This document shows, one piece after another, positions 5,210 to 64,000 of a stretch of DNA of 64,000 nt (its first letter is position 1; every line of letters begins with the position of its first letter). A program made the translations under genes and the position numbers. The notes beneath the pieces are model-generated. The model made no database searches. It was not told the DNA's origin and saw nothing but the letters and a program-made list of their open reading frames with translations. This stretch comes from an uncultured Clostridia bacterium (GTDB lineage Bacteria > Bacillota > Clostridia > Oscillospirales > Acutalibacteraceae). The stretch spans positions 1 to 64,000 of the forward strand of contig CAJFOZ010000088.1 in the NCBI GenBank assembly GCA_904397895.1, given 5' to 3'.

Positions 5210-6250
5210 TCACACAACAATGGTATAGGGTTCTGTAACTGAAAAGGGATATTGAACAGTATCTCCATCCATAATGTCTAGACAATAGGTAACGGCATAA
5301 TAGACATGGCTTCCCTCTTCAAGAACATCAGAGGAGATCGGCACTTCCCAGTAGTTTTCCAGCTCAGAGGATTCCCAATCCAGGTAGCTCTTTCCCCCAA
5401 AGGCTTCCACCAGTTGCCCGTCCCGCAGCAGAATGGTACGATAATGCCCTGCTTCCTGCTGCAACGTCAACCTATAGTTTTCGCTGGAATCGTTTTTCAT
5501 CCATCTTTTAAAAGAGGGCATGCCTGTTTTATCCTCATTTCTGGCAGCACCATATGAAATTCCGTTGTAGCCCACCGCTCCATCCGGCAGTCCATTCTCA
5601 ACAGCGCCCACTTCCTCCATGGAAGCGCTGGAGGGAAGTTCTTTTGTGGCCAGGTCAGGGCTGACAGGTAAAATCCTAAAGAATTCATAAATGCTGAGAT
5701 AATAATTGTCCCCATCAGATTCATGCTCCAGCAGCTTGTCGTAGTTGGCCAACACGTGGAAGACCACATAAGAGGGATGCTCGCTGGAGAGATAGACCGG
5801 GTGGTCGATAGTCAAGGAAATTTTTTGAAAATCCTCCTCCTCGACCGGAATGGTATAAGAGGTTTGTTCCTGGCTTCCGTTTTCTACACGGAAAGGTTGG
5901 ATATACCCATTGATGGTGATAAACAGGGTACAGTTGATCTTTCTGGTTCCGTCACAATTTAAAGAAAAGTCACAGGTCAGAGGCTTCTGCTGGTAAGAAA
6001 CCACGGGATTCTCGTAATCCAATCGCTCCCCATTGACGTCGTTAGGGCGAAATACGATTTGAAGAGTCTCTTCTTCTGGATTTTGAGATGTTTGCCAATT
6101 ATAACGGTTTTCTTCGCTGACAATAGAAGATCTTGAAGGACTTGTTTGTCCTCCGCATCCAGTCAAAACAGACAATAAAAATAGACCGATCAACGTCAAA
6201 CATAGCCTCTTTGATATTTTCAAAACAATCACCACCCTTGCAGACCACAA
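5210..6250 (-). CDS. Predicted lipoprotein
   Basis: Signal + lipobox LLSVLTGCGG; start uncertain (a TTG preceded by AGGGTGG may be the real start). Confidence 0.65.
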   Translation of the reverse strand: MWSARVVIVLKISKRLCLTLIGLFLLSVLTGCGGQTSPSRSSIVSEENRYNWQTSQNPEEETLQIVFRPNDVNGERLDYENPVVSYQQKPLTCDFSLNCDGTRKINCTLFITINGYIQPFRVENGSQEQTSYTIPVEEEDFQKISLTIDHPVYLSSEHPSYVVFHVLANYDKLLEHESDGDNYYLSIYEFFRILPVSPDLATKELPSSASMEEVGAVENGLPDGAVGYNGISYGAARNEDKTGMPSFKRWMKNDSSENYRLTLQQEAGHYRTILLRDGQLVEAFGGKSYLDWESSELENYWEVPISSDVLEEGSHVYYAVTYCLDIMDGDTVQYPFSVTEPYTIVV

Positions 6251-12443: not shown

Positions 12444-14162
12444 ATGAAGGGGCAGGATAAGCGAAAGTACGCCATTTACTCTCGGAAATCCAAATTTACC
12501 GGCAAGGGCGAAAGCATCGAAAATCAGATTGAACTTTGCCGTCAGCATATTAAGCTACATCATGGCAATGTGGCAGAAGACGACATCCTCATTTTTGAGG
12601 ATGAAGGCTTCTCCGGCGGAAACGTCAACCGTCCTCAATTTCAGGCCATGATGAAAGAAATACGGGCAAACCGGATTCAGGCAGTGGTCTGTTACCGCTT
12701 AGACCGTATCAGCCGTAACGTGGGAGACTTTGCAAAGCTGAAAGATGAATTTGACTATTATAATGTAGAGTTTACTTCCATAAGAGATGATTTTGACACC
12801 ACCTCCCCCAGCGGCAGAGCCATGATGATGATGGTATCTGTTTTTGCACAATTGGAACGGGAAACAACGGCTGAGCGCATCCGGGACAACATGCACGAGC
12901 TTGCCAAGTCCGGACGGTGGCTCGGCGGTACGACGCCAACCGGTTACAAAAGTACGCAGATTGTCGGAAGCGTTACGGTGGACGGAAAAGAGCGAAAAGC
13001 CTACAAGCTAGAGATTATTAAAGAGGAAGCCGAGATTGTCAAGCTGATTTTCTCCAAGTTCCTAGAAACCAATTCCCTTACCCAAACCGACACCTATCTA
13101 TTGCAACACAACATCACCACAAAGAACGGGAAGAATTTTACCCGGTTTTCCATTCGCTCTATCTTGCAAAACCCGGTCTACATGATAGCCGATCAAAACG
13201 CTTGGGATTACTTTGAGAAATCAGATGTGGAAATCTACGCCGATCGAGCGGAATTTGACGGCAAGCATGGCATTATGGCCTACAACAAGACCATTCAGAA
13301 ATCCGGTAAGGCCAATCAGATGCGGGATATGGACGAGTGGATTGTGGCGGTGGGAAAACACAAAGGATTGATTGACGGAGCCGATTGGGTGAAGGTGCAA
13401 AATATGCTCAGCCAAAACCGTTCCAAGTCCTACCGCAAACCCAAGAGCAATGTGGCGTTGTTGTCTGGTTTGCTGTACTGCGGCAACTGCGGGAGCTTTA
13501 TGCGTCCAAAGCTCACCAAAAGAGAAAATGCACAGGGAGAAAAGATTTACAGCTATCTCTGCGAGACAAAGGAGCGCAGCCGTTGCCAGAACTGCAACAG
13601 CAAAAACCCCAACGGCAACCAACTGGATCACATGATCTGCGAACAAATCAAGATAATTTCTGAGGACAGTTCCGAATTCATGAAAAGCTTGGATAACATC
13701 CAAAGGAGATTGGAAGGCAACCGGGAAGAATATGACCAGCAGTTAAATGCTCTCAAAAAGGAATTGCAGGAAAATGAGCAGCAAATTTCTAACCTGGTGG
13801 AAATCCTAGCGAAGACGCCCAACACACCGGCATTTGATTACATCACCGGGCAGATCAACACCCTGCATGAGAAGAATGAAAAAATCAAGAACCGAATTGG
13901 CGAGTTGGAATCCCTCACCAAAAGCCAATTTTATTCCAGTGAGCAATTTGACAAAACAAAAGAACTGCTAAAATCCTTCGGGCAGTCCTTCGATACCATG
14001 AGCGTAGAGCAGAAGCGTATGGCGCTTAGAGCGTTCATCCGCCGGATTGTCTGGGACGGGAAAAACGTCCATGTGGTGCTGTTTGGCGATGAGGAATCGG
14101 AGATTGACTACACCGATTTGTTAGAGGAAAAATCCGAGCCGTTAGGAGCGGATAGCGAATGA
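12444..14162 (+). CDS. Large serine recombinase (resolvase/recombinase/zinc-ribbon/coiled-coil); candidate sigK-element excisionase
   Basis: YAIYSRKSKFTGKGESIENQ catalytic Ser region; YRLDRISRN; Cys motif YCGNCGSFMRP...YLCETKERSRC; coiled-coil C-term. Confidence 0.93.
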   Translation: MKGQDKRKYAIYSRKSKFTGKGESIENQIELCRQHIKLHHGNVAEDDILIFEDEGFSGGNVNRPQFQAMMKEIRANRIQAVVCYRLDRISRNVGDFAKLKDEFDYYNVEFTSIRDDFDTTSPSGRAMMMMVSVFAQLERETTAERIRDNMHELAKSGRWLGGTTPTGYKSTQIVGSVTVDGKERKAYKLEIIKEEAEIVKLIFSKFLETNSLTQTDTYLLQHNITTKNGKNFTRFSIRSILQNPVYMIADQNAWDYFEKSDVEIYADRAEFDGKHGIMAYNKTIQKSGKANQMRDMDEWIVAVGKHKGLIDGADWVKVQNMLSQNRSKSYRKPKSNVALLSGLLYCGNCGSFMRPKLTKRENAQGEKIYSYLCETKERSRCQNCNSKNPNGNQLDHMICEQIKIISEDSSEFMKSLDNIQRRLEGNREEYDQQLNALKKELQENEQQISNLVEILAKTPNTPAFDYITGQINTLHEKNEKIKNRIGELESLTKSQFYSSEQFDKTKELLKSFGQSFDTMSVEQKRMALRAFIRRIVWDGKNVHVVLFGDEESEIDYTDLLEEKSEPLGADSE

Positions 14163-14172
14163 AATCTTAATG
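14150..14172 (+). other. Putative att junction (attR side) of the sigK-intervening element
   Basis: GAGCGGATAGCGAATGAAATCTTAATG: recombinase stop TGA overlaps N-E codons of sigK (IENEILM). Confidence 0.7.
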
Positions 14173-14553
14173 TACTTCCGCAGTCAGAAAAAGACGTCCC
14201 AAGATGTCTCCCTCAATGAACCTATCGATACCGACAAGGACGGCAACACCTTATCCTTGATGGATGTTATCGCCACAGAGGACAATATTCTAGATAATTT
14301 GGATATCCGCCTAAAATCGGAGCGATTGCGCAAATACATGATGGAAGCGCTCTCCCCACGGGAACGTATGATTTTGGAACTGCGATATGGTCTGGATGGC
14401 AAAGATAGTTTAACCCAACGAGAAGTGGCTCAAAAATTAGGCATTTCTAGATCTTACGTCAGCCGCATTGAAAAAAAATCCATGTCCCAGCTTAAGAAGC
14501 TGTTTGATATGGAAGGGTCTCCTCTGGCTAAACGACGAAAAAAACAAGTATGA
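14170..14553 (+). CDS. sigK: Sigma-K, 3' half (C-terminal region 3/4); 5' half not in window
   Basis: MYFRSQKKTSQDVSLNEPIDTDKDGNTLSLMDV...SPRERMILELRYGLDGKDSLTQREVAQKLGISRSYVSRIEKK, matching the spoIIIC-type C-terminal portion of sigma-K. Confidence 0.88.
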   Translation: MYFRSQKKTSQDVSLNEPIDTDKDGNTLSLMDVIATEDNILDNLDIRLKSERLRKYMMEALSPRERMILELRYGLDGKDSLTQREVAQKLGISRSYVSRIEKKSMSQLKKLFDMEGSPLAKRRKKQV

Positions 14554-57381: not shown

Positions 57382-57597
57382 ATGGCAGATGCTTGCAGTT
57401 CCTGCAATTCTTGTGGAACTTGCCCTCCGATGATTGACGACAGGACGCCCTTTCCCGCCCATACCCCGGTGGCCATGGCTTATGTTCCTTACCAGAATAT
57501 GACCGAGGTTTTTGAGCCGGAACACGCCCTGCGAGTCGGTACGCTTTTCCCGGAATTGGATAAACCGTTTCTTGCTGGAAAGGGGTGCCGCTGCTAA
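57382..57597 (+). CDS. cotJA: Spore coat-associated protein CotJA
   Basis: PFPAHTPVAMAYVPYQNMTEVFEPEHALRVGTLFPELDKPF. Confidence 0.92.
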   Translation: MADACSSCNSCGTCPPMIDDRTPFPAHTPVAMAYVPYQNMTEVFEPEHALRVGTLFPELDKPFLAGKGCRC

Positions 57598-57857
57598 TGG
57601 ATGACCGTATGATGCTCATGCGTAAGCGGGCAGCGGCCTGTTTTTCCATGTGGGAAACCCATCTGTATCTCAACACCCATCCCAACGATACCCAGGCCCT
57701 TCAAATGCTCCGGCAATACGAGGCTACCTGCGACAAATTGACCCAGGAATACGAATCGAAATACGGCCCCATTTCAGCCAGCAGCGCTGATATGGGATGC
57801 CGTTGGTCTTGGTTAGCTGATCCGTGGCCTTGGGATTACGATAAGGGGGATTGTTAA
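57597..57857 (+). CDS. cotJB: Spore coat protein CotJB
   Basis: Stop-start overlap TAATG with cotJA; FSMWETHLYLNTHPNDTQAL, WPWDYDKGDC. Confidence 0.92.
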   Translation: MDDRMMLMRKRAAACFSMWETHLYLNTHPNDTQALQMLRQYEATCDKLTQEYESKYGPISASSADMGCRWSWLADPWPWDYDKGDC

Positions 57858-57861
57858 GTAT

Positions 57862-58065
57862 ATGTGGAGCTATGTCAAACAATTACAACATCCGATTAAA
57901 GTAGCTACACCCAATCCTGCTTTGGCTAAAGTGATTATCTCTCAATACGGCGGACCAGATGGTGAATTAGGCGCTTCTTTACGTTATTTAAGCCAGCGTT
58001 ATTCTATGCCCTATCCTGAGCTCAAAGGGTTGCTCACCGATATCGGTACCGAAGGGTCAGAATGA
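57862..58065 (+). pseudogene. cotJC: CotJC (manganese-catalase-like), truncated after 64 conserved residues; possible 5' half of an interrupted gene
   Basis: MWSYVKQLQHPIKVATPNPALAKVIISQYGGPDGELGASLRYLSQRYSMPYPELKGLLTDIGTE then non-homologous GSE*; expected EELAHLEM continuation absent in all frames. Confidence 0.85.
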
Positions 58066-58205
58066 CACACGACGGTGAGAAATGGCTGTATACCTCCGTT
58101 TCTCACACTTGAATTTTCAGAAAAAGACGGCGAGACATCGGGGGCACAATGATACACAGGCTTTTTCGGGGACATTTTGCTGTTTTTCATGGCATATTCC
58201 TTTCT

Positions 58206-58442: not shown

Positions 58443-59261
58443 TTATAGAGCCTTTTTGGGGCAGGCTTTGACACACTCCATGCACAAGATGCATTCGGTA
58501 CCGTTTTTACGCCCTCGGGAGTTATCGGTCATATCCACCTCCATAGGGCAAACCGTTTTGCATTTGCCGCAGGAGATGCACTTTTCCTTGTCACAGGTGA
58601 TTCGGAACAGGGAAAAGTAACTCATTGGCTTTAAGAAGACCGTAATTGGGCAGATGTATTTGCAAAATACCCGGTTATCCTTGAAAGCAAAAGCCAAAAG
58701 AATCCCCACGAGATAGTAAAGGATATTGCCAGCCAAAAACGCCCAGAACATAATTCTTTCCAAATTCCCCAAGTGAGCAAGAAACAGCACCGCCACGAAA
58801 ACTAAAGATGCTGCGAAAGTTATGTATCGAATCCAGCCGATTTTTTTGCGAGGATGTTGGGGCGTTTTATAAGGCAGGAAATCCAGCACCATGGCCGTCC
58901 AGCAGGCGTAGCCGCACCAGCCGCGTCCAAAAATCAGCGGCCCGAAGATTTTGGCCACCGCATAGTGGATAGTGGCAGCTTCAAATACGCCGGTAAAGAG
59001 ATAGTACCAGAAGCCTTCAATCTGCATATTTTCGTTGCAGATCAGGCCCAGATAAATCAGCATATACAAACCCACCAGAAGCTGGACAATCCGCCGGGCG
59101 TGCCTATAATTTTTGGTATATAGAAAGACACCGGTAGACAGCGCCAGGCCGATGTAACTGAAATTCAACAGGTAAAACAGATTGTCTTTTGTTAGCCAAA
59201 GGGTAAAGGCCACGGCTTCAAAAACCACCAACAAAAGCGCGGTGGGAAGATATTTTTTCAT
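58443..59261 (-). CDS. 4Fe-4S binding membrane protein (NapH-like)
   Basis: GRGWCGYACWTAMVLDFLPY, CKYICPITVF, CISCGKCKTVCPMEVDM, CILCMECVKACP. Confidence 0.92.
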   Translation of the reverse strand: MKKYLPTALLLVVFEAVAFTLWLTKDNLFYLLNFSYIGLALSTGVFLYTKNYRHARRIVQLLVGLYMLIYLGLICNENMQIEGFWYYLFTGVFEAATIHYAVAKIFGPLIFGRGWCGYACWTAMVLDFLPYKTPQHPRKKIGWIRYITFAASLVFVAVLFLAHLGNLERIMFWAFLAGNILYYLVGILLAFAFKDNRVFCKYICPITVFLKPMSYFSLFRITCDKEKCISCGKCKTVCPMEVDMTDNSRGRKNGTECILCMECVKACPKKAL

Positions 59262-59404: not shown

Positions 59405-59788
59405 TTGAGAAATGAAATGGAAGTCTTTGAAGAATACCTAGCAAAAATTGAGAATGAAGCGCACCGGTTCAGAATGCGGGAAGTGCTTGCCTGGGTGAAA
59501 GACACTTTTCCGACGCTGGCAACGAAAATCGCCTGGAACCAACCGATGTTTACCGACTGCGGGACGTTTATCATTGGGTTCAGCGCCGCCAAGGGGCATT
59601 TCGCCGTCTCGCCGGAGGCGCAGGGAATGGCGGCGTTTTGCGATGATATCGCAAAATCGGGATACAACCAGACGAGCAATCTCTTCCGCATTCAATGGGA
59701 CGAACCGGTGGACTTCCCCTTACTGGAGCGCATCATCCGGTACAATATCGAGGATAAAAAGGACTGCACCACCTTTTGGCGGAAGTAA
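59405..59788 (+). CDS. DUF1801 / YdhG-like protein
   Basis: KIAWNQPMFTDCGTFIIGFSAAKGHFAVSPE. Confidence 0.85.
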   Translation: MRNEMEVFEEYLAKIENEAHRFRMREVLAWVKDTFPTLATKIAWNQPMFTDCGTFIIGFSAAKGHFAVSPEAQGMAAFCDDIAKSGYNQTSNLFRIQWDEPVDFPLLERIIRYNIEDKKDCTTFWRK

Positions 59789-59808
59789 TCGCGAACGGAG
59801 GGAAAAGA

Positions 59809-60516
59809 TTGGATTTGGCATCCGTTATGGCCGAACTGGAAGCGCTGGGGACGGAGCAGACCAGAAAAACCTATCAAAACCACGGGGCGCGGGAGCCTCT
59901 GTTTGGGGTAACGCTTCGGGACATGAAGCCTCTGGCCAAAACGATCAAGAAAGACCACGCGCTTGCGATGGAGCTTTACGCTACCGGCAACTACGACGCG
60001 CAAACGTTGGCGGGAATCGTTGCCGAACCCGACAAGATGACCGCCTCGGATTTCGAGCGTTGGATGGAAACGGCAAACTGCCGGGCTACGGTGGACTACG
60101 TGGTGGCGGTTACATTGGCGGAAACCGGTTTTGCGGAGGAGCTTGCCGACCGCTGGATTGACAGCGGGGATGAGAACGATCAGTCCGCCGGGTGGAACTG
60201 TTATTGCCGGCTTCTCAGCAGCCGCCCTGATGAGCAATTTGATCGAGGAAAGCTGAACAAGATGTTGCAGCGCGTGGTTCGGGATATCCATGGACAGTCC
60301 AACTGGGTGAAATATGCCATGAATAACTTTGTCATATCGGTTGGCACTTCCTATCTCCCGCTACACGAAGAAGCGATGAAAGCCGCCCTGAAAATCGGCG
60401 CTGTCTTGGTGGACCATGGGAATACCAGCTGCAAAACACCGCTGGCGGCGGACTATATCCGCAAAGCTGAGGAAAAACAGCGCCTGGGCTTCAAAAGGAA
60501 AAAGGCGCGCTGCTAA
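59809..60516 (+). CDS. DNA alkylation repair (AlkD-like) protein
   Basis: YGVTLRDMKPLAKTIKKDHALAMELYATGNYDAQTLAGIVAEP; TTG start with GGAGG SD; C-term FKRKKARC. Confidence 0.88.
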   Translation: MDLASVMAELEALGTEQTRKTYQNHGAREPLFGVTLRDMKPLAKTIKKDHALAMELYATGNYDAQTLAGIVAEPDKMTASDFERWMETANCRATVDYVVAVTLAETGFAEELADRWIDSGDENDQSAGWNCYCRLLSSRPDEQFDRGKLNKMLQRVVRDIHGQSNWVKYAMNNFVISVGTSYLPLHEEAMKAALKIGAVLVDHGNTSCKTPLAADYIRKAEEKQRLGFKRKKARC

Positions 60517-60522
60517 ATTTGC

Positions 60523-62130
60523 TCAACTATCTCTTGTCGCCGCCAGGCTTTCCAGCACATCGATCCACTTGGTCGGTAGCAGCTTCAAATGTACCTCCAT
60601 GCGCCGGTCGGGATAGGCGGTGATGTGGTCGAGCAGGTTCCCGTAGAAATTATCGGAGGCGTTCTCTCCCCTGACAATGCTCGTTACCCTGGCGCGGATA
60701 TCTTTCTCCAGTGTGGCGGTGTCGTAGGACAGGCTTTCCCGTTTCTCCGCCGCTGCGATTTTTTCGGTGAGTTCTGCGATGTGGCGGTCGTATTCGGCAT
60801 TCATCAGCTTCATGTCCTCTTTGGAAATACTTTTGGCGAAAAAGGCGTCCAGCACGCCTTTTTTCTTTGCCTCAATCTGCTCCAGCTCTTTTTTCAGCCG
60901 GTCGGCGCTGAGCTGGCTGCTGTCCTGAGAAGACTGGATGGTCTCCAGTACCATACGGGTGATGTCACGGATGATAACGGCTGTATCCAGCTTCAGCATT
61001 CTTATCGACTGTCGCACCATCTCCATCCCTACCTCGTCCCGGAGCTGATAACTCACGTTGCAGCCGACCTCGTTGCCTGCCGGATCCATGTGGCGCTTGC
61101 CCTCCGCTGTGGCAGTGCCGCACCGCCATGCCTTGTAGCGGCTGCCGTCCTTTCGCCTGCGGCTGCGGGAGACAAAGCTCTGCCCGCATTCGCTGCACTT
61201 GATTTTTCCCGAAAGCGGATAGCGGTTGCCGTGGCCGGTGCCGTATTTGCCGTCGATATCCCGACGGGAAATCTCCCGCTGGGCTTCTTCCCACAGCTCC
61301 CGGGCGATGATAGGCTCGTGGTGGTCTTTGAGAAAGACAAATTTTTCCTCGCCCCGGTTGTATTTTTTCTGATGGGTGAGATAGTCAGGGGTGATGGTCT
61401 TTTTCTGCTTCAAGTCCCCGCAGTATTTCTCGTTGCGGAGGATTTTTAAAATCACGGTATTCCGCCAGCTTGTGCTACCGGTGAGGGTCTTGTAGCCCGC
61501 CTCCCGCAGCTCCCGGGCGATGACCGTGGTGCCTTTCCGCTCATGGACGTACTTGTGAAAAATCAACCGGACAATCTCCGCCCCCTGTGGATTTACAGTC
61601 ATTTTACCGCCTTGCACATCGTACCCCAGCAGGGAGCGGCCGAACACGACGCCCTGTTCCATCCGGCGGGTCTGGCCCCATTTGACACGGGCGCTGGTGG
61701 AGCGGCTTTCCTCCTGCGCCATGGTGGATTTGATGGCTAGCAGCATTTCGGAGTCCTCTTTGAGGGTGTTCATATTGTCATTCAGGAAGAAAACGCCAAT
61801 CCCCATCCGTTTCAGTTCCCGGGTGTAGGTGAGGCTGTCCAGCGTGTTGCGGGCGAAACGGGAAATCTCCTTTGTCACGATCAAATCAAACCGGTGAAGC
61901 CGGGCGTCGTTGATCATGCGGTTAAACGCCGCGCGCTTTTTGGTGCTGGTGCCGGTGATGCCCTCGTCGGCGTAAATCTCATATAGCTCCCAGTCCGGCT
62001 GGCGGTCGATGTATTCCCGGAAATACCGCTGCTGGCTTTCAAAGGAATTGGCCTGATCCTCTTTATCCGTAGAAACACGGCAGTAGGCTGCAACTTTCAT
62101 TTTTCCATCACTCCTTGATTTTTCTTTCAT
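60523..62130 (-). CDS. Large serine recombinase
   Basis: VAAYCRVSTDKEDQANSFESQ, DLIVTKEISRFARN; recombinase domain GYDVQGGKMTVNPQGAEIVRLIF; zinc ribbon IKCSECGQSFVSR; coiled coil. Confidence 0.95.
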   Translation of the reverse strand: MKEKSRSDGKMKVAAYCRVSTDKEDQANSFESQQRYFREYIDRQPDWELYEIYADEGITGTSTKKRAAFNRMINDARLHRFDLIVTKEISRFARNTLDSLTYTRELKRMGIGVFFLNDNMNTLKEDSEMLLAIKSTMAQEESRSTSARVKWGQTRRMEQGVVFGRSLLGYDVQGGKMTVNPQGAEIVRLIFHKYVHERKGTTVIARELREAGYKTLTGSTSWRNTVILKILRNEKYCGDLKQKKTITPDYLTHQKKYNRGEEKFVFLKDHHEPIIARELWEEAQREISRRDIDGKYGTGHGNRYPLSGKIKCSECGQSFVSRSRRRKDGSRYKAWRCGTATAEGKRHMDPAGNEVGCNVSYQLRDEVGMEMVRQSIRMLKLDTAVIIRDITRMVLETIQSSQDSSQLSADRLKKELEQIEAKKKGVLDAFFAKSISKEDMKLMNAEYDRHIAELTEKIAAAEKRESLSYDTATLEKDIRARVTSIVRGENASDNFYGNLLDHITAYPDRRMEVHLKLLPTKWIDVLESLAATRDS

Positions 62131-62274: not shown

Positions 62275-62451
62275 TCAAATTTGATGGTTCAGTGTGTCCA
62301 AACAGTGCTGAAATTGCACTTCGTTTAAAACGTCCTGCTCTTTCAGAGCGAGCAAAACCGACTGCTGATACAGCCGGTAAAATTCCGGTGTGGTCGTTTT
62401 GCTGACTGCGATTTCTTCGGTACATTTTAAAAATACCGCTTCATTCCCCAT
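62275..62451 (-). CDS. Small mobile-element hypothetical protein
   Basis: MGNEAVFLKCTEEIAVSKTTTPEFYRLYQQSVLLALKEQDVLNEVQFQHCLDTLNHQI. Confidence 0.6.
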   Translation of the reverse strand: MGNEAVFLKCTEEIAVSKTTTPEFYRLYQQSVLLALKEQDVLNEVQFQHCLDTLNHQI

Positions 62452-62475
62452 TGGCCACACCTCCCTCATCCATGT

Positions 62476-62967
62476 TTATGAAGGAAGATGTTTGGCTTTG
62501 CCTGTCCGCTGCTTCTTTCTTTGGGTGAAAGTGCTTGACATAGCGGGTGTGGGAACGAATAGCGAAATCGTCTGTGGAAATACCAGTTCCAAACAGCTTT
62601 TTCTCAGTTGTATCAAGCCGCGTTCAATGCTGCGGCGGACGGTGCTTTCGTCTACGCCTTCGCTTCTGGCAATCTGGGAATAGTTTTCCTCGCAGAAAAA
62701 GTATCGGTAAATGCGGACAGCCTGCTTACCCAGCAGGCTGTTCAGAGCGTCGTATAAAATGCGATAAGATTCCATCCGGATAAAAATTCGGCAGGGATCT
62801 ACGTCGTAAGCCATACACCGGCTTTCCAGATAATCTTGAAGTCTTTCATCATCGAGTGAAAAGGCAAGCCTGTTTCTCCGATCCCGCTCTTTTTGGGCGC
62901 GTTCCCCTTTGTCAAATTCCTTTACAAGGGCTCTCCAAATGGTTGCGCTTTCTGCTTCATGAGTCAT
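62476..62967 (-). CDS. Sigma-70 region 4-like small protein
   Basis: RIYRYFFCEENYSQIARSEGVDESTVRRSIERGLIQLRK. Confidence 0.7.
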   Translation of the reverse strand: MTHEAESATIWRALVKEFDKGERAQKERDRRNRLAFSLDDERLQDYLESRCMAYDVDPCRIFIRMESYRILYDALNSLLGKQAVRIYRYFFCEENYSQIARSEGVDESTVRRSIERGLIQLRKSCLELVFPQTISLFVPTPAMSSTFTQRKKQRTGKAKHLPS

Positions 62968-63153: not shown

Positions 63154-63519
63154 CTAAACCGCGTATTCATTAAGTCCTACGCTAATCGCCAACGCATGGT
63201 TGATACCGTGGAGATGGCACTCATTCAAATGCTCGACAAAGGCGCCAATCCGCCTTTTGTCAATGGTGCGGATCTGCTCCAAAAGGACAAGAGACGGAAG
63301 CTGTAGGCCGCTTTCCGGCTGAAGCAAGTAGTGAGTAGGCGGCTTGGCTTTGGCATTTACCTTGCTGGAAATAGCCGCGACAATTACCGTGGGGCTGTGC
63401 CGGTTTCCTATGTCGTTTTGAATGATCAAGACGGGACGGTACCCCTCCTGTTCCGAGCCCATTCCCCGGCCCAAATCGGCGAAATATAAATCGCCGCGTA
63501 AATAGGTGCGTTGCATCAT
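63154..63519 (-). CDS. PemK/MazF-family toxin (endoribonuclease)
   Basis: RGDLYFADLGRGMGSEQEGYRPVLIIQNDIGNRHSPTVIVAAIS..LQLPSLVLLEQIRTIDKRRI. Confidence 0.92.
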   Translation of the reverse strand: MMQRTYLRGDLYFADLGRGMGSEQEGYRPVLIIQNDIGNRHSPTVIVAAISSKVNAKAKPPTHYLLQPESGLQLPSLVLLEQIRTIDKRRIGAFVEHLNECHLHGINHALAISVGLNEYAV

Positions 63520-63672: not shown

Positions 63673-63999
63673 CTATTTCAAAATATTTTTCAATCTTATT
63701 TCTGCGGCTGTCACCGATTTGGCAACAGCTTGAAACGCACACCCCTCCCTTTTTGCAATCTGCTTATAAGTCAAACCTTTAAAATAATACAGAATCAATC
63801 TGCGCCGCTGTGTATCCGATAATTGGGAGATCGCCTGATATAGCCGCTCATACTCCAGTTTGCGGATAACGGCATCCTCAACGGATTCCGGTTTATCTAT
63901 AGCCCGTAAATTGAGGGGAATCTCCGTCTGTTCCGATTGTTCATAATGCCTGTCCACTGCGTTGAGATAAGAGAGATCTTCCAGCCCAAAGCGATCCAT
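63673..63999 (-). CDS. Sigma-70 family-like protein (may extend past window edge)
   Basis: LYQAISQLSDTQRRRLILYYFKGLTYKQIAKREGCAFQAVAKSV. Confidence 0.75.
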   Translation of the reverse strand: MDRFGLEDLSYLNAVDRHYEQSEQTEIPLNLRAIDKPESVEDAVIRKLEYERLYQAISQLSDTQRRRLILYYFKGLTYKQIAKREGCAFQAVAKSVTAAEIRLKNILK

Positions 64000-64000
64000 A

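Follow-up and report, generated by a model that had tools for sequence, protein, structure and literature searches.

How does a conserved sporulation gene come to break off at one codon while the genes before it are complete? We addressed this question for cotJC in a window of 64,000 nucleotides (contig C88, positions 1-64000) taken from a MAG of 2.13 Mb, 91 contigs and 86% completeness. The original prediction read the abrupt switch in CotJC as a site-specific junction rather than as drift. Our analysis points in the same direction: probably, an element with a large serine recombinase is inserted at one base pair of cotJC and is excised in the sporulating mother cell.

Attachment sites at the cotJC break

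As predicted, cotJA (57382-57597, plus strand; Pfam CotJA, 67.7 bits) and cotJB (57600-57857, plus strand, with an alternative start at 57585; Pfam CotJB, 87.5 bits) are intact. The ORF that follows on the same strand (57862-58065) starts normally, reads CotJC over 64 residues and then switches to GSE-stop; its match to the Pfam Mn_catalase profile covers positions 1-65 of 284 only. The cotJC 5' part consists of codons 1-61 and the GG of codon 62 (57862-58046), the cut falling at codon 62 (position 58045), so that the insertion interrupts the reading frame of a sporulation gene. The orphan 3' part expected to begin near E-L-A-H-L-E does exist, not downstream in the 64-kb window, where it is absent, but on a second contig of this genome (C72:5170-5604), where a genome-wide Pfam search matched C72:5167-5535 to Mn_catalase positions 62-197, without internal stop. 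Joined to the 5' part of the window, this 3' part gives a full-length CotJC reading frame. Simple drift or a frameshift was rejected, because no cotJC sequence continues past the switch and the remainder of the gene is intact elsewhere.

An intact second cotJC was looked for in the window's genome and not found. The third Pfam hit, on contig C60 (G000:C60:10713-10931, L003), was considered as a backup gene and discarded: with the cotJC model it matches in two parts (15.9 and 11.6 bits) and represents a diverged CotJC-like paralogue. Several family members have similar weak matches.

The left junction, in the window, reads GATATC|GGTACCGAAGGGTCAGAATGACAC and the right junction, on C72, reads CATTGTGACCCTCCGGTA|GGTACCGAAGAACTAGCC; the cotJC 3' part on C72 is directly preceded by ...CCGGTAGGTACCGAAGAACTAGCC. 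Both junctions contain the core GGTACCGAAG (58045-58054, plus strand, in attL; identical at C72:5170-5179), and the core guessed beforehand, ACCGAAG, falls inside it. The crossover was placed at the GG of Gly codon 62 (58045-58046, plus strand), because the junctions of several genomes differ in both flanks. This inferred dinucleotide is common to all junctions read at this site, hereafter site B1. The left-end arm P' of the element, TACCGAAGGGTCAGAATGACACACGACGGT (58047-58076, plus strand), mirrors the C72 arm as an inverted repeat. Joining the element ends gives CATTGTGACCCTCCGGTA-GG-TACCGAAGGGTCAGAATG, an inverted repeat at 17 of the 20 nearest positions about the central GG, whereas the same arm symmetry reaches at most 14 at 5800 other positions in the element. 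This is the form of a large serine recombinase attP. The shared core, the near-palindromic attP and the full-length CotJC restored by the joined flanks bear out the site-specific junction that had been proposed.

The element and its recombinase

The left part of the element extends from 58047 through the end of the window (64000) to the contig end at 65464, and C72:1-5169 would be its right end. The two ends sit on different MAG contigs, C88 and C72, and a single element presumably spans them. Its cargo in the window comprises a membrane-bound 4Fe-4S protein (58443-59261, minus strand; Pfam Fer4 families), a DUF1801 protein (59405-59788, plus strand; domain match) and a DNA alkylation repair protein (59776-60516, plus strand; PF08713). 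Next, all on the minus strand, come a large serine recombinase of 535 aa (60523-62130; Resolvase, Recombinase and Zn_ribbon_recom), a SHOCT-like ORF of 64 aa upstream of it (62275-62469), a sigma-70 region 4-like protein (62476-62967), a PemK/MazF-like protein (63154-63519; PF02452) and a second sigma-70 region 4-like protein (63673-64000 and past the window end). The C72 part encodes a ParB-like protein; reading by eye adds a nitroreductase-like protein, an ArsR-type regulator and, at the contig edge, a MobC-like protein. From this gene content, the element looks mobilisable or conjugative and not like a prophage. No relaxase or T4SS genes were seen in the assembled element parts, and the middle of the element is not assembled with them.

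The recombinase lies 2.5 kb from attL; most other cotJC-site recombinases abut a junction. It falls with 100/100 support in the B1 clade, whose 15 members are all found at this cotJC site. The serine-recombinase element expected just downstream of the break is therefore one that encodes a recombinase of the matching clade, which is probably the integrase and excisionase of the cotJC element.

In the mechanism that we propose, a mobile element would have integrated within Gly codon 62 and split cotJC. In the sporulating mother cell, the recombinase would then recombine attL with attR, probably with help from the small protein whose gene lies just upstream. The element would leave as a circle and a seamless cotJC would be restored, while the vegetative and the spore genome would retain the element. 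Excision and its restriction to the mother cell are inferred from comparative and selection evidence, and the part played by the small protein is likewise presumed.

A short SHOCT-like ORF is found near the recombinase in about ten B1 elements examined, the most distant of them being weakly similar. It usually lies directly upstream of the recombinase on the same strand, and its product is a candidate directionality factor. Small RDFs are known: GirX of the gin element has 42 aa (PMC5595907), others have 53 and 72 aa (PMC10747680), and the small RDF of the C. difficile skin element in sigK is needed for excision (PMC5025042). A scan for a sigma-E/sigma-K-like promoter upstream of the small ORF remained at chance level.

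Excision might also be ordinary ICE/IME transfer during growth, with restoration of cotJC as a by-product without developmental control. The MobC-like, ParB, PemK and sigma-like genes do make the window element look mobilisable, and the element of G005 carries relaxase-like genes, by eye. However, many cotJC elements measure 2-9 kb and show no transfer genes, and one element has been kept across two species; domesticated, developmentally used elements therefore fit better, and we regard excision by growth-phase transfer as unlikely.

A second sporulation gene of the same genome, sigK, is disrupted as the original prediction stated. Its 5' half lies at C69:61714-62052 and its 3' half in the window (14152-14505), abutted by a serine recombinase of 572 aa (12444-14162, within the region 12444-14553). 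cotJC and sigK are also both split in [Clostridium] viride. The further idea that the two elements are excised in a coordinated manner was not supported. sigK is intact in all seven family genomes checked, six of which have a split cotJC, including the closed congener G019, while the seventh (G101) has only an extra cotJC 3' half. The two splits are therefore independent.

Recurrent breaks and selection on the pieces

Among the 80 relatives retrieved through the cotJC 5' part, 12 show the switch at the same place. Eleven of these hold the matching 3' part, divided once more in two of them; the twelfth (G004) showed, besides the 5' half, only intact cotJC copies. The eleven include two isolates, Pseudoflavonifractor phocaeensis An507 and [Clostridium] viride DSM 6836; the latter has its halves 5.1 kb apart on one scaffold and also a second cotJC copy that is uninterrupted. 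When both halves are on one contig, they are 5.1-12.3 kb apart (five genomes) or ~163 kb apart (one genome). In the latter case (G008:C69:11087-175051), the distance may be due to one very large element, to more than one element or to a rearrangement. Virtual excision produced a full-length CotJC in 15 of the 15 genomes tried. In the closed congener G019, the same base pair is filled by a different element of 14.4 kb. This element carries, by eye, a polysaccharide biosynthesis cluster (L127 4107-16217) unrelated to the cargo of the window element.

In G101 (contig C2, L140), cotJC is intact, and its 3' half occurs a second time ~5.5 kb further downstream, behind an attR-like arm and with an identical protein sequence. 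Between the two copies there is a 1650-aa ORF, and no recombinase was found there. A duplicated 3' part may have served to repair this gene.

In the window's own family, 93 of 121 genomes have a Mn_catalase match and about 40 of these 93 carry cotJC only in pieces (table read by eye). Interior piece boundaries cluster: 75 of 89 fall within 6 profile positions of three regions, against 22% expected (nominal P ~1e-36, the three centres having been chosen from the same data). This clustering bears on the origin of the break itself. The window comes from a 91-contig MAG with the cotJC pieces on different contigs, a situation that could reflect an assembly or binning artefact, with contigs joined chimerically or broken within cotJC. 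Yet the two ends form one symmetric attP, and breaks of the same kind are found on single contigs, in the isolate [Clostridium] viride DSM 6836 and in the closed genomes G019 and G061. Given the closed genomes and the fixed break codons, an assembly chimera was rejected and an artefact of any such kind is hardly credible.

Base-level reading of the junctions placed the crossover at codon 31 for site A (QYGG-PDG, dinucleotide GG), codon 62 for site B1 (GG), codon 65 for site B2 (GA) and ~codon 136 for site C (MAAE-QKAR, GA). The cotJC junctions have large serine recombinases at or near them. In a maximum-likelihood tree of 33 recombinases, those of A (8/8), B1 (15/15) and C (4/4) form three fully supported site-pure groups; the deep branches of this tree are long, and it is these groups, not the branching order, that we rely on. 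Four B2 recombinases form a clade with one more, from G109, which is located inside a B2 element. The recombinase adjoining sigK is a very long branch outside the cotJC groups.

Some genes are split several times. A single contig of G109 carries cotJC codons 1-35, 30-64, 62-139 and 135-198, colinear and all on the same strand. An additional 11-bp cotJC piece, GGTACAGAAGA, lies between the B1 and B2 elements, for a total of five pieces and four elements. G127 has three pieces plus an intact copy elsewhere, and in G102 four pieces are spread over three contigs. Some of these elements have a cargo that can be recognised by eye. The site-A element of G127 (L128 3864-4649) encodes an apparent Fe/Mn superoxide dismutase inside the split Mn-catalase gene, and the site-B2 element of [Clostridium] viride (L117 1237-4183) apparently has genes for an MntR-like regulator and for FeoA/FeoB iron transport.

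G109 and its congener G133 share a colinear site-A element, with 73-81% DNA identity over aligned stretches, that contains genes for the recombinase, a small ORF, a ~320-aa protein, a GH25 lysozyme and a holin. G133 also has B2-type junctions, whose right end is similar to that of G109; neither a B1 nor a C break was seen there. For the shared site-A element, descent is a simpler explanation than parallel acquisition of the cassette, which would be possible but less simple. Between these two genomes, the cotJC pieces have a dN of 0.027, a dS of 1.27 and an omega of 0.022; dS values near or above 1 are approximate. Omega is 0.19 for the shared recombinase and 0.07 for the holin. The cotJC pieces of the window genome and G019 give an omega of about 0.03-0.04, and omega differs little between split and intact cotJC genes. 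Such strong purifying selection on the pieces of a gene split by a shared element suggests that the interrupted gene is used, which would require its regular reconstitution. It seems to be the strongest indirect support for excision.

The recurrence of insertions has another possible reading, namely that cotJC is a dispensable safe harbour, a gene whose loss costs little, from which nothing is excised by programme, its 3' half being a recent remnant. Many different elements use the cotJC site, one recombinase is short (295 aa in G009, although both cotJC halves of that genome are intact), and the excised forms, the attB junction and the attP circle junction, are both absent from the window's own assembly. 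Nearly all cotJC pieces are nevertheless without stops, the few exceptions including G033, and their omega equals that of intact genes. At a depth similar to that of the G109/G133 comparison, a neutral simulation put stops in >90% of copies. Genomes with several elements retain their pieces, in G109 all in order. We therefore judge a dispensable cotJC quite improbable and prefer programmed excision.

The site-A GH25 lysozyme and phage holin are kept under purifying selection in G109 and G133 (L130 1752-5766, L169). As a speculation, this pair could serve mother-cell lysis.

On balance, we favour the view that cotJC exists in this family as a "gene in pieces" and that each of four serine-recombinase clades has specialised on one of its conserved motifs. 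Some species would have to remove up to four elements from between five pieces (one of 11 bp), all with single-base precision in the mother cell, before one coat enzyme could be made, and some elements would now be stable, selected parts of sporulation.

Comparison with known interrupted genes

Programmed gene restoration in spore formers is known from single insertions, in sigK, spsM, spoVFB, spoVR, gerE and yabG. In the open-access literature searched, we found no paper on programmed restoration of cotJC. Here, a spore-coat gene appears as a recurrent hotspot across a whole family, with four positions and four recombinase clades. The set offers natural replicates for studying what draws such elements to late sporulation genes, how multiple excisions might be coordinated and whether the host benefits, and it supplies four serine recombinase groups with base-exact att sites. 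Automated annotation will label cotJC as missing or as a pseudogene in many gut bacteria.

Elements in sporulation genes that combine a serine recombinase with an RDF are a precedent for the proposed mechanism (PMC5025042, PMC4191935, PMC5595907). Like the cotJC element, skin in sigK of Bacillus subtilis and C. difficile has a large serine recombinase, a mother-cell gene as target and a precise junction (PMC5025042). In contrast to the sigma factor gene hit by skin, the cotJC target encodes a coat enzyme; the window element is ICE/IME-like where skin is prophage-like, and cotJC excision is deduced. The gin element in gerE of Bacillus cereus is likewise a non-phage element in a sporulation gene, with a serine recombinase and a small partner, a symmetric attP and a short shared core; its target is another gene with one site, compared with four sites and four recombinase clades in cotJC (PMC5595907). 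SPbeta in spsM (PMC4191935) and yin in yabG (PMC10747680) also interrupt sporulation genes and do excise. Unlike the cotJC elements, they are prophages or prophage-like, with one element per gene.

The nif/hup elements of heterocyst-forming cyanobacteria resemble cotJC in that one gene is occupied at several fixed positions by different elements, although the developmental programme, the phylum and the recombinase genes (xis) are others (PMC4874684). Up to four elements occur in the nifD gene of Rivularia, the most fragmented gene of that survey, and the cotJC of G109, with four elements, equals it (PMC4874684).
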